From: Nakamurella sp. PAMC28650
GTDB lineage: Bacteria > Actinomycetota > Actinomycetes > Mycobacteriales > Nakamurellaceae
NCBI RefSeq assembly: GCF_014303395.1
Contig: NZ_CP060298.1
Span: 5,227,001 to 5,291,000, forward strand
Length of the DNA: 64,000 nt
Direction: 5' to 3'
The translations under genes and the position numbers were made by a program. The notes under the pieces are model-generated. The model was not told where the DNA came from and ran no database searches. It saw only the letters and a program-made list of their open reading frames with translations. This document shows, piece after piece, positions 31,606 to 36,949 of the stretch. Within the stretch, counting starts at the first letter, position 1; every line of letters starts with the position of its first letter.

Positions 31606-34323
31606 TCAACGGTTGACCGTCGAACTGCCCTCGCTCATCATCGGGCGACACAGCAGATGGGCGATCAGGGCCGTCCAGCCGGTCTGGTGGGAGGCGCCGA
31701 GGCCCTCCCCGGTGTCTCCGTCGAAGTATTCGCTGAAGGTGATGTGGTCGGCCCACAACCGGTCCGGGGACGCCTCGATCCGGTGGCCGTCGCTGGGTCG
31801 ACGGCCGTCCGGACCTCTGCGGAACAGGTCGGCGAGCCGGTCGTCGATCAGGTCCGCGGCCTGATCCAGCGGCACCTGGGGGCCGCCGGGCGACGGGACC
31901 GGAATGGTCACCGACTGACCGAGATAGCCTGCGTGCCTGCGGAACGCATCCGCCAGCAACACATTCACCGGGAACCAGACCGGCCCACGCCAGTTCGAGT
32001 TCCCGCCGAACAGGCCGCTGCGGGACTCCCCCGGCTCGTAGTCGATGGACATCTGCTTCCCGTCCACGTCGGTCGCGTACGGGGTCCGGTAGGACGCGGA
32101 CAACGACCGGATACCGTACGAGGAGAGGAATTCCGATTCGTCGAAGATCCGGGCGGCGAGTCGGTTCAAGGCGCCCTGATCGACGAGCGAGAGCATCATC
32201 GCCTCACCGGAGGTGTTGTCGGACAGCAGGGGTTCGGCCAGGTCGGGCCGGCGACGGCGCAGCCACGCCAGCCGCGCGCTGAAGTCCGGGAGCTTGGACC
32301 AGACGGCCGGGGACACCGTCGCCACCGCCAGGATGGGCAGCAGGCCGACCATCGACCGCACCTGCAGCCGCTGATGGGTGCCGTCCGGGTGGACGAGCAC
32401 GTCGTAGTAGAAGCCGTCGACCGGATCCCACAGCGTGACCTCCTGCGAGCCGAACTGCCGACTGGCCTTCGCGATCGACAGGAAGTGCTCGAGGAACTTG
32501 GTGGCGATGTCGTCCCAGGCCGGGACGGTCATCGCCAGTTCGAGACAGATCTGCAACATGTTCAGGCAGAAGACCGCCATCCAGCTGGTGGCGTCGGACT
32601 CCTCGAGGCGATATCCCGGAGGCAGCACGCCCGAGCGGTCGAACAGTCCGATGTTGTCCATGCCGAGGAATCCCCCCTCGAACAGATTCGAGCCGTCCGC
32701 GTCCTTGTTGTTCACCCACCAGGAGAAATTCAACAGGAGTTTGGTGCAGACCCTGGTCAGGAAATCCACGTCCGTTCCGCCGGCGACCAGGAACACCTGC
32801 CAGGCCGCCCAGGCGTGCACCGGAGGATTGACGTCGGAGAAGGCCCACTCGTACGCCGGTAGTTGTCCGTTCGGGTGCATCGCCCATTCCCGGCAGAGCA
32901 ACAGCAGTTGGTCCTTGGCGAAGGCCGGGTCGACGTGGGCCAGCGCCACACATTGGAAGGCCAGATCCCACGACGCGAACCACGGATACTCCCATTCGTC
33001 CGGCATGCTGATCACGTCGGCCAGCGACAGGTGTTCCCAGGTGAGGTTGCGGCCGCCGGACTCGGCTCGCTGCGGCGGCGGCACCGGCTCCCCGGGGTCG
33101 CCCGCGAGCCACCGCCGGACGTCGTACCGGTAGAGCTGCTTGCCCCACAGCAGGCCCGCGAAGGCCCGGCGTGCGATGTTGGCGTCCTCGGCCGAAAGTC
33201 TCTGCGGCAGGACGGTTGCGTAGAATTCGTCAGCCTCCTGCCGGCGGTCGGCGAGGACCGCGGCGAAGCCGGTCCCGAAGGTGTCCGAGTCGGGTTCGTC
33301 TGCGGACAACCGCAGCCGGACGGTCACCGAGGCCCCGGCCGCAATCGATTCGAAGTGGTACCAGAACGCAGCTTTGGTGCCGTGGCCGGCCGGGTCGACG
33401 GCAGTGGTGTCGCCGTGCACCACCCGCTGGTTGATCCCGTCCTTGGTGTACGACGCGCGATTCTCCTTCGCTCCGAACAACGCGACGGAATTGGTCTCGT
33501 TCTGGCAGAACAGCACCTGCGGCGTCCCCTGGGCGACCACCACGTACCGCCCGAGGAAACCGTGGATGCATTCCACGGCCCGGGACCGGCCGCCGATCAG
33601 GCCCGGATCCATGGCGTTGATCGATGGTGTCCGGTCGTCGGTTCCCCACGCCCACGTGTTGCGGAACCAGACCTGCGGGATGACGTCGATACCGGCCGCG
33701 TCCGGCCCGTTGTTGGTGACGGTGATGACGGCGCAGATGTCGTCGGGGCCGGCTTTCGCGTAGTCCACCTTGATGTCGAAGAATCTGTTCTGGTCGAGAA
33801 TTCCGGTGTCGGCCAATTCGAATTCGCGGTCCTCCCGGCCCCTGGCCGCATTCTCGCGGCGCAGACGCTCGTAGGGATATTCGGCCTGCGGGTACCGGTA
33901 GAGCCAACTCATCCAGGAGTGGGACGGCGTGCCGTCCAATGCCCACCAGTACTCCTTGGCGTCCTCGCCGTGGTTGCCCTCGCCGTTGGTCAGGCCGAAG
34001 AGCCGTTCCTTGAGGAACGGGTCCTTCCCGTTCCACAGCGCGATGCTGAGGTTGAGAAACCCGAACCTGTCGCAGATCCCGCCGAGGCCGTCCTCGCCCC
34101 AGCGGTACGCACGTGCCCCGGCCTGCTCGAACGGCAGATAGGCCCAGGCATCACCGTCGGTCGAGTAGTCCTCGCGCACCGTGCCCCACTGCCGCCCGGA
34201 CAGGTACGGGCCCCACAGCCGCCACGGGCCACCCGCCGAGGGCGATTCGGCCAACCGCGCATGCTCGGCGCTGCGGTGCTGGTTGGCCTCTGCTGGTTGG
34301 GCGTGGCGGCCCGCTGTAGTCAC
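31606..34323 (-). CDS. Glycoside hydrolase family 63 glucosidase-like protein
   Basis: A 905-aa protein of the bacterial GH63/MGH1-type group. The N-terminal half is a beta-rich domain (GPYLSGRQWGTVREDYS, WGEDGLGGICDRFG). The C-terminal half is an (alpha/alpha)6 barrel with the likely catalytic acid in EYPWFASWDLAFQ and conserved EPGESRSGLFGGNSNWRG and PVWFPVN segments. GH63 members cleave alpha-glucosidic bonds, including glucosylglycerate- or mannosylglycerate-type substrates in bacteria. No signal peptide is seen. It converges on the LacI gene with a 42-base gap. Exact substrate unknown. Confidence 0.85.
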   Translation of the reverse strand: MTTAGRHAQPAEANQHRSAEHARLAESPSAGGPWRLWGPYLSGRQWGTVREDYSTDGDAWAYLPFEQAGARAYRWGEDGLGGICDRFGFLNLSIALWNGKDPFLKERLFGLTNGEGNHGEDAKEYWWALDGTPSHSWMSWLYRYPQAEYPYERLRRENAARGREDREFELADTGILDQNRFFDIKVDYAKAGPDDICAVITVTNNGPDAAGIDVIPQVWFRNTWAWGTDDRTPSINAMDPGLIGGRSRAVECIHGFLGRYVVVAQGTPQVLFCQNETNSVALFGAKENRASYTKDGINQRVVHGDTTAVDPAGHGTKAAFWYHFESIAAGASVTVRLRLSADEPDSDTFGTGFAAVLADRRQEADEFYATVLPQRLSAEDANIARRAFAGLLWGKQLYRYDVRRWLAGDPGEPVPPPQRAESGGRNLTWEHLSLADVISMPDEWEYPWFASWDLAFQCVALAHVDPAFAKDQLLLLCREWAMHPNGQLPAYEWAFSDVNPPVHAWAAWQVFLVAGGTDVDFLTRVCTKLLLNFSWWVNNKDADGSNLFEGGFLGMDNIGLFDRSGVLPPGYRLEESDATSWMAVFCLNMLQICLELAMTVPAWDDIATKFLEHFLSIAKASRQFGSQEVTLWDPVDGFYYDVLVHPDGTHQRLQVRSMVGLLPILAVATVSPAVWSKLPDFSARLAWLRRRRPDLAEPLLSDNTSGEAMMLSLVDQGALNRLAARIFDESEFLSSYGIRSLSASYRTPYATDVDGKQMSIDYEPGESRSGLFGGNSNWRGPVWFPVNVLLADAFRRHAGYLGQSVTIPVPSPGGPQVPLDQAADLIDDRLADLFRRGPDGRRPSDGHRIEASPDRLWADHITFSEYFDGDTGEGLGASHQTGWTALIAHLLCRPMMSEGSSTVNR

Positions 34324-34514
34324 GACGTCAACCTTGGCACAGGCTCCCGACCTCGACCGTGGCGGGCGGGCGCACCCCTCTCACAGCCGGCCCACAGAGG
34401 TGCTCGGTACCGTCGCTTCCATCATGTGACGCAGGTCGTGGCTCCGCGGGGGCCGATCGGCCCGAATGACAAGGGGGAGCCGATGGCCGGCGACGCGACC
34501 AGCCGCCCCGTTAG
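34324..34514. other. Divergent promoter region of GH63 and DUF998 genes, left flank of the IS1380 element
   Basis: This stretch once separated the divergent GH63 and DUF998 genes. At its right end GGGGGAG (34473-34479) precedes ATG 34483, the original DUF998 start. Ten codons and two bases follow before the IS begins. TTAG at 34511-34514 is the left target duplication. No other structure is clear. Confidence 0.7.
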
Positions 34515-36200
34515 CCTCAATCTTTCGTGAGACGCCCGGCCTTTCCTCGGCGCGATAGATCTGGTGTTTCGCACCGACGGGCATGTCTGCGGGTTCGTCG
34601 AAGCCCCGGTGGGTCACCTGGGTGGGTGCCGGATTCCACGTTCCGGGGGGTTTGTCTTCTTGCTGGCCGGGTGGGTTGTTGAAGGTCAGGTCGGCGCCGG
34701 CAGCTGGGTCAGCCGGTCCAGGGCGGTGGTGAACAGGTGCCGGTGGGTTGCGTGACCGGACAGCCGCAGCCAGACCCGGCGGGATCGGCGCGCAATGGTC
34801 CCGGCCACGGAGAACAGCTGCAACCGCAGCCGTTTCGGTTCCCACCGGCGGGCGCCGGTGCCGGTCAGCGCGAGCATCTGCAGCCACGCGGTCAGCTCCG
34901 TCGCCAACTGGACGACGGCGACCCAGATCTGGTTCTGCGCGAACGCAGTCAAGGGCAGGTTCCGCAGCCCGGTGTCTTTCGCGTTGCGGATCCGGTCCTC
35001 GCAGCGGGCCCGGTGCCGGTGCCGCAACTCCAGGTCCGCCAGCTGCCCACCAACAGTGTTGGTGACGAACGCGGTCAGCCGGTTCCCGCCTGAGTCGGTG
35101 AACCGCAACTGCGCCCCGGGGTGCGGACGTTCGGCCCGGACGATCACCCGCATCCCTGCCGGCCACGTTGACAGGTCCAGCAGGCCGGTGAGTTCGGTGA
35201 CCCACGCCCCGTCGCGGACCTTCCCATCGCCGTCGTAGGCCGGTGTCCACCCTGGTCGGGGATCAGGTTGATCTTGTCGACGATGTCCTGCGTCAGCCCG
35301 AACCCCACCGAATACGACAGGCCCTGCCCGGCCAGCCACTTCAGGTATTCGTGGGTGCCGCCGCCACTGTCGGCGCGGACCAGCACCCTGCGCCCGATCC
35401 GGCCACCGCGGCGGTTGAAGGGCAACTGCCGCAACGCATCCTTGGTGACCGCGATGTGGTCGGCGGCGGTGTTGGACCCGGCCCTTCCGGGGCGCAGCAT
35501 CATCGACAGCGGCTCACCGGTGCCGTCGGGGCCGTGGTCCACCCACGATCCCAACGGATGGAACCCGAAACCGCGCTTGTAGGTCGGCGCCGCCAGTTCC
35601 TTCTCCGAATGGGAGGTGATCAACGTAGCGTCCAGGTCGATGATCAACGGCCGGTCCCGGTCGATTCCGAAGTCAGGGGCGTCCTTCCCGGCCATCTTCC
35701 ACACCCGCTGTCGGACTGCTGCTCTGGCCTGGTTGATCGCCGCCAAAGCGGCCTGCGGGGTCGCGGCCAACGCGTCGACCAGCCGGGACACGGTCGGGTC
35801 CGAGGCGACCCGGCCGAACACCGCCGGCTCAGACCGCAACGCCGAGATGTCGGCCAGGCAGTCCCCGCCGATGGCGACGCTGATCGCCAGGTCCAGCAGG
35901 ATCTTCCCCGGATCCAGCACCGCCCACTGCTTGCGCCACGGCTCCAACGCGGCAGACAAAGCCCGGTCCAACCCGACCTTCCCGGCGGTGGTGACCAGCA
36001 GCACCGCACCCGCATGGGACACCACCCGCTTCGCGGTCGTGTCTACTGTCAACGGCGGGTAGAAACCGGTAGGGTTCGGCATCAGAAAGGTGCTCCAGTT
36101 TGCTGACGATGTGGATCTCAGAGACCCTCATCATCGCAGTTCGGGGCACCTTTCCCTCACTCCGAAACGCCCCGTCAGCTATCCGCGTGAAAGCGCGAGG
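34515..36200 (-). mobile_element. IS1380-family insertion sequence (1686 bp) with TTAG target duplication
   Basis: The ends are imperfect inverted repeats read inward: CCTCAATCTTTCGTGAG on the left and CCTCGCGCTTTCACGCG on the right. TTAG flanks both sides (34511-34514 and 36201-36204). Length and the single long transposase on the minus strand fit the IS1380 family. Removing the element and one TTAG joins the two parts of a DUF998 gene exactly in frame, which confirms both ends. The transposase is frameshifted, so this copy is probably immobile. Confidence 0.92.
34686..36082 (-). pseudogene. IS1380-family transposase, frameshifted
   Basis: The N-terminal part (from 36082) reads GFYPPLTVDTTAKRVVSHAG and carries DDE-type motifs: LIIDLDATLITSHSEKE with the first Asp, and RVLVRADSGGGTHEYL with the second. 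Near 35255 the frame is lost: DLIPDQG continues as W-T-P-A-Y-D-G-D-G-K only in another frame, which runs to the stop at 34686. One base appears to be missing in a GGG run. The rebuilt protein would be about 465 aa, the family length. A sequencing error would explain it equally well. Confidence 0.88.
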
Positions 36201-36204
36201 TTAG

Positions 36205-36949
36205 GTCCGAGCAGCCGTTGGTGACCGGCGGCCATCGGTCCCCGGTCATCCGGACCCTGAGCGGCCTGGCACTGGGCGGCGTGGCCGTCACGTCGGTGGT
36301 GTTCGCCGCGCTCCATCTGCTGCCTCCGACCTCGGGCATCTCGGCGGTCCACCGCACCATCAGCGAATATGCGTTGACGAGTTCGGCGTGGGCGTTCGAT
36401 CTCGGCGTGATCGCGTTGTGCGGTGCATCGGTCGCGGTGTTCGCGGCCCTGGTGATGCTGCGCCGCATTCGCGCGCTGTCCGGCGGAACCGTCTTCGGTG
36501 CGCTCTGGGTCGCCGGGCTGCTGACCCTGGTCGGCTTCCCCAAGCACAACTGGGCGCTGGGCGGCTCGGGGAGCAGCGGCCAGATTCACCGACTGGCCAG
36601 CCTGGTGTCGTTCCTGGCTCTTCCGATCGCCGTCCTGGCGATCTCGCGGCGGCGGGGCCGGCCGGCCCAAGGCGCTGCCGCCTGGTGCGACTTCTGGCTC
36701 GGAGTCCTATCGTTCGCGTGGTTCTCACCGATCGTCGTCGCCGTGCTGACCGCGCCACGGGCGTGGTGGCAACAGATCCCGCTCGGCCTCGTGGAGCGAG
36801 GTCTGGCGCTCAGCGAGGTGCTCGCGGTCGTCGCCCTTGCGCTGTCGGTACGAACGGATTCCACCGGGGCCGGGCCGTCAGGGGTGCAGAACCGAGGCCA
36901 GCTCACGGATCTGGTCCGGACCGACGCGGCAGCAACCGCCGATCAGTGA
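36205..36949 (+). pseudogene. DUF998 membrane protein gene, 5' end separated by the IS1380 element
   Basis: The body encodes a roughly 245-aa DUF998 protein with about six helices (LALGGVAVTSVVFAALHLLP, ISEYALTSSAWAFDLGV, FPKHNW). Its natural start lies at 34483, before the IS: removing the IS and one TTAG gives codons for M-A-G-D-A-T-S-R-P-V-R-S-E-Q-P-L-V-T-G-G in one frame, total 777 bases, 258 aa. A shortened product could still start at TTG 36218 or GTG 36221, with poor ribosome binding sites. Its 3' end overlaps the convergent methyltransferase gene by 72 bases. DUF998 function is unknown. Confidence 0.85.

Follow-up and report, generated by a model that had tools for sequence, protein, structure and literature searches.

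The interrupted DUF998 gene

The analyzed DNA is a 64,000-nt stretch (the window; contig NZ_CP060298.1, positions 5,227,001 to 5,291,000) of the chromosome of Nakamurella sp. PAMC28650, in which a DUF998-family membrane-protein gene appears to be split by an insertion sequence (IS) of the common IS1380 family (Table 1). The locus has three characteristic features: (i) an ATG at 34483, preceded by the Shine-Dalgarno (SD)-like motif GGGGGAG, opens a frame that is soon cut off, (ii) this fragment ends with a TTAG that recurs on the far side of a 1686-bp element, and (iii) fusion of 34483-34514 to 36205-36949 gives 777 nt with no internal stops, encoding 258 residues followed by a stop codon. An earlier sequence-only reading of the window had named the same ATG, element and TTAG, and had rebuilt one open frame by removing the element and one TTAG; its positions are exact to the base, whereas its count of 259 codons includes the stop.

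The gene body matches the DUF998 profile PF06197 over nearly its whole length (E-value 3.9e-15; 56.4 bits at a cut-off of 30; profile positions 3-183 of 184) and keeps all residues that are invariant in the genus alignment of Nakamurella homologues. Its predicted structure is a complete helical bundle with a mean predicted local distance difference test score (pLDDT) of 84; a structure search of the PDB with this model returned no significant matches. A second DUF998 gene, 36% identical and with an SD-led start, is located elsewhere in the chromosome (G000:C1:3699541-3700143; L036).

Table 1. Features of the interrupted gene and of the inserted element (window coordinates)
Feature	Coordinates	Strand	Basis
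SD-like GGGGGAG of the interrupted DUF998 gene	34473..34479	+	Sequence; aligns with GGAGAG before the G011 GTG start
DUF998 gene, first 32 nt, cut off from the body	34483..34514	+	Frame join; G011 alignment; genus homologues
Target-site duplication TTAG, left	34511..34514	.	Sequence; sibling-copy alignment
Insertion sequence of the IS1380 family (1686 bp) with a minus-strand transposase	34515..36200	-	15 full-length copies share both ends; NF033539
Terminal inverted repeat located 3' of the transposase gene	34515..34531	.	End comparison
Transposase, C-terminal part, different frame	34686..35339	-	PF13701 286-434; NF033539 244-418
Transposase, N-terminal part, early end after the frameshift	35144..36082	-	PF13701 3-265 of 435; NF033539 2-256 of 419
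1-bp deletion site breaking the transposase, common to L009 only	35253..35255	-	Alignment of 15 copies
Terminal inverted repeat located 5' of the transposase gene	36184..36200	.	End comparison
Target-site duplication TTAG, right	36201..36204	.	Sequence; sibling-copy alignment
DUF998 gene body, domain complete, otherwise undamaged, without an SD-preceded start	36205..36949	+	PF06197 3-183 of 184; invariant residues kept

Comparative evidence for the start of the gene

In the nearest relative (genome G011), the order of the genes for glycoside hydrolase (minus strand), DUF998 (plus strand) and homocysteine S-methyltransferase (minus strand) is kept without the IS, and the respective proteins are 78%, 61-63% and 73% identical to those of the window. 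Since the gene is found unbroken at the same place in a related species, the assignment of the window copy to an ordinary insertion of the IS1380 family, and not to a new kind of element, is well supported. The G011 gene starts at a GTG that is preceded by GGAGAG, lies one codon past an in-frame stop, and is in frame and aligned with ATG 34483. Nakamurella homologues with a recognizable SD mostly have 45-60 residues between the start and an anchor histidine (two have 73, and one weak case has 32); the rebuilt gene has 48 and a start at 36218 would give 33. Thus, the earlier claim that the true start lies 1.7 kb away from the body is supported both for this gene and for the genus.

A mechanical list of open reading frames places the start of the body at TTG 36218, and the IS could merely lie upstream of an uninterrupted gene that begins at this TTG or at GTG 36221, with the ATG and the open frame being coincidental. 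Such a start finds some support in a scan of named genomes, in which an alignment used as the query retrieved 70 homologues, nearly all of them outside Nakamurella (the rebuilt protein alone retrieved none). SD-like starts were recognized in 29 homologues, and 22 of these give 35-49 residues before the RTISEY motif, compared with 59 for the rebuilt gene and 44 for the 36218 start. However, the SD-led start of G011 sits at the equivalent of 34483, the genus homologues with an SD mostly begin upstream, the frame is open across the exact join, and inspection of the start codons of the body found no SD before 36218 or 36221; we therefore regard a true start at either codon as very improbable. The sequence-only reading had expected that homologues would not begin at the equivalent of 36218; this mostly holds in Nakamurella and fails in part outside the genus.

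The short leaders outside the genus also weigh against an interrupted gene, as do several other observations. The first 11 residues align weakly with those of G011 (3 of 11 residues and 16 of 33 nt identical), and the empty site is deduced from another species, at 61-63% protein identity, rather than from a strain of the same species. Moreover, because shorter starts are common outside the genus, leaky initiation at 36218/36221 could, if the body is transcribed, still yield a protein of normal length. Many distant homologues from Actinomycetota start at about the equivalent of 36218-36221, and hence the ten lost codons appear to be a genus-level leader, which is variable in the family and not part of the conserved DUF998 domain. 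What the gene chiefly loses is its start site and upstream region, not the domain. Taking these points together, we assign a probability of about 0.93 to the reading that a resident IS1380-family element split an intact DUF998 membrane-protein gene after codon 10, by the steps described below.

A hairpin covering the SD and the start of the rebuilt gene was considered and rejected, as its z-score of about -2.3 was obtained for one chosen stretch, and the hairpin disappears in a longer fold and is absent in G011. At 36878-36949, the 3' end of the DUF998 gene shares 72 bp with that of the homocysteine S-methyltransferase gene, which is convergent to it; the overlap is shorter in G011.

The inserted element and its transposase

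The ends of the element, CCTCAATCTTTCGTGAG and (in reverse complement) CCTCGCGCTTTCACGCG, are alike at 11 of 17 positions, and both begin with CCTC. They are kept at identical bases in 14 other full-length copies in the chromosome, confirming the earlier length of 1686 bp. The IS1380 type proposed from the sequence is supported by two profiles: NF033539, against which the N-terminal part of the transposase scores 182 bits (cut-off 180) and the C-terminal part 145 bits, and PF13701 (DDE_Tnp_1_4), which matches both parts. Target duplications of the IS1380 family are 4-5 bp long, and the window copy shows the transposase type, the terminal inverted repeats and a 4-bp target duplication (TTAG) of this family.

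The transposase gene is broken by a 1-bp deletion near 35254, a feature absent from the sequence-only reading. Its frame spans 327 codons from stop to stop, compared with 480 in most siblings; in an alignment of 15 copies, most siblings are intact, and the deletion is common to the window copy and L009 alone. A programmed frameshift was rejected, because the deletion occurs in just 2 of the 15 copies and the frame is open in the remaining copies, which lack it.

Sibling copies and mosaic structure

The chromosome (G000; a single contig of 5,629,850 bases) contains 15 full-length copies, starting with CCT and ending with AGG, as well as fragments. Eleven copies, including the window copy, are about 1.69 kb long, and the other ten are 93-97% identical to the window copy. 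The remaining four (L012, L013, L014 and L015) are 1696 bp long and 85% identical to it, and form a second subfamily; that they are identical to one another and have an intact transposase frame suggests recent activity of this subfamily. An older copy (L016 and L020) at L138 (G000:C1:3658200-3661400) is itself interrupted by about 1.3 kb with a 314-residue frame, which by eye resembles an IS3-family transposase; the older copy adjoins L010, with CTAG alone between them.

Segment exchange is extensive within the 1.69-kb subfamily (L001-L011). The window copy matches L003 exactly at 34515-35015, and L009 at 35140-36096 except for 3 sites, the deletion included in the match; it has one private substitution. 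Among neighboring informative sites, the incompatible fraction is 0.23 against 0.53, and none of 1000 permutations reached the observed compatibility; thus, the copies have exchanged segments, and the window copy combines L009-like with L003-like sequence in a mosaic. Because both TTAGs of the window element are intact, we infer that gene conversion (non-reciprocal exchange) suits this mosaic better than crossing over. The mosaic and the shared deletion could alternatively be assembly artefacts, as copies that are 93-97% identical are hard to polish and were compared in the assembled sequence. We consider this unlikely, since the genome is a single contig and the copy interiors differ in long consistent blocks instead of being homogenized to one consensus.

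Target choice

Perfect target duplications flank 12 of the 15 copies (ten CTAG and two TTAG). The duplications are unequal in L008 and L011 (TTAG/CTAG in both) and in L013 (TTGG/TTAG), possibly by mutation or by recombination between copies. Related elements in another genome, G010, end at CTAG, TTAG or CTAA. Both main targets are rare in the window, which contains 5 CTAG sites, compared with a trinucleotide-based expectation of about 45, and 7 TTAG sites; therefore, the YTAR tetranucleotides (mostly CTAG) are selected targets and not accidental ones. We found no paper, among those searched, on an IS1380 element with a CTAG target site or on IS1380 in Nakamurella. The sequence-only reading is thus extended in two respects: the window copy is both dead and mosaic, and YTAR is the target of its lineage.

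A palindromic target was also considered and rejected: the motif CACGCCCTAGGGCGTG, which accompanies several copies, is not repeated across the genome, and the copies with it adjoin another repeated sequence, starting with GGGCGTGTCCCGCGG. Four copies (L006, L007, L008 and L010) lie beside a shared repeated sequence, GGGCGTGTCCCGCGGATCTTGGAGG, in which a different mobile element probably ends.

Proposed history and expression

In the proposed history, one member of the multi-copy family would have entered a TTAG ten codons into the intact DUF998 gene and duplicated it; the duplication is visible at the site, and the transposition step would follow from the family. The SD, the start codon and the upstream region are now parted from the body, and the gene is probably not expressed normally. 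Because the window copy, with its 1-bp deletion, is unable to make its own full transposase, it may have been moved in trans by the enzyme of a sibling, or it may have been damaged after insertion, when gene conversion introduced sequence from another copy. Since the invariant residues are kept and the helical bundle is confidently predicted, either a recent insertion or some continuing selection on the body is probable.

Alternatively, the gene may be interrupted while a promoter carried or created by the IS still drives expression of its body. Precedents exist in two IS1380 members, ISEcp1 and ISPme1, whose outward promoters are strong (PMC9330008); ISPme1 mobilizes DNA adjoining its own 3' end (PMC9330008). 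In the window, however, the 3' end of the IS (34515) faces the glycoside-hydrolase gene and not DUF998, and a scan of both IS ends found no sigma-70-like promoter, a model that covers a part of actinobacterial promoters. Expression of this kind therefore seems improbable to us. The frame that runs out of the IS toward DUF998 meets a stop just inside the IS end. The glycoside-hydrolase-like gene (MGH1-like/GH63; 31606-34323, minus strand, start at 34323) is divergent from DUF998, and its start is about 190 bp away from the IS, which lies upstream with the 3' end facing this gene.

Comparison with known systems

The DUF998 family (PF06197) structurally resembles Frag1/DRAM/Sfk1 (PMC10584675) and has no established function; one metagenomic DUF998 clone came from an esterase selection (PMC6302743). 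The window gene resembles the family in its full-domain match and predicted helical bundle, and differs in being interrupted after codon 10. It represents a clean case of an IS masking the true start of a gene, which is useful for correcting annotation.

For IS copies of Wolbachia wBm, gene conversion was reported by Cordaux 2009, as cited in PMC3004938 and PMC3196728. As far as these citations describe it, non-functional copies share inactivating changes via sequence exchange, as do the window copy and L009, whereas in Nakamurella intact and damaged copies coexist and the host is an actinobacterium, not an endosymbiont. A 15-copy family that combines strict YTAR targeting with mosaic exchange bears on the persistence of damaged IS copies.

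The element shares with other IS1380 members (ISEcp1, ISPme1; NF033539) a DDE transposase, a length of about 1.7 kb, a single transposase gene, a 4-bp duplication and short imperfect inverted repeats beginning with CCT. It differs from them in the frameshift of the window copy and in the almost exclusive duplication of YTAR by its lineage, and no outward promoter was recognized by the sigma-70-like scan. IS1380 transposases serve as an outgroup of the piggyBac superfamily, in which TTAG and CTAA are among the rare duplications other than TTAA (PMC10813416). The likeness, known from targets in two species, consists in a 4-bp target duplication with a TA core, which is TTAA in piggyBac and CTAG, TTAG or CTAA in the Nakamurella elements; the latter are prokaryotic and prefer a different tetranucleotide. 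Seamless excision is the other hallmark of piggyBac. By analogy, the YTAR-specific Nakamurella lineage might excise seamlessly, and the DUF998 gene might be re-activated once a sibling transposase removes the dead copy, but we regard this as a highly speculative extension. The YTAR targeting itself bears on the link between IS1380 and piggyBac in target choice.
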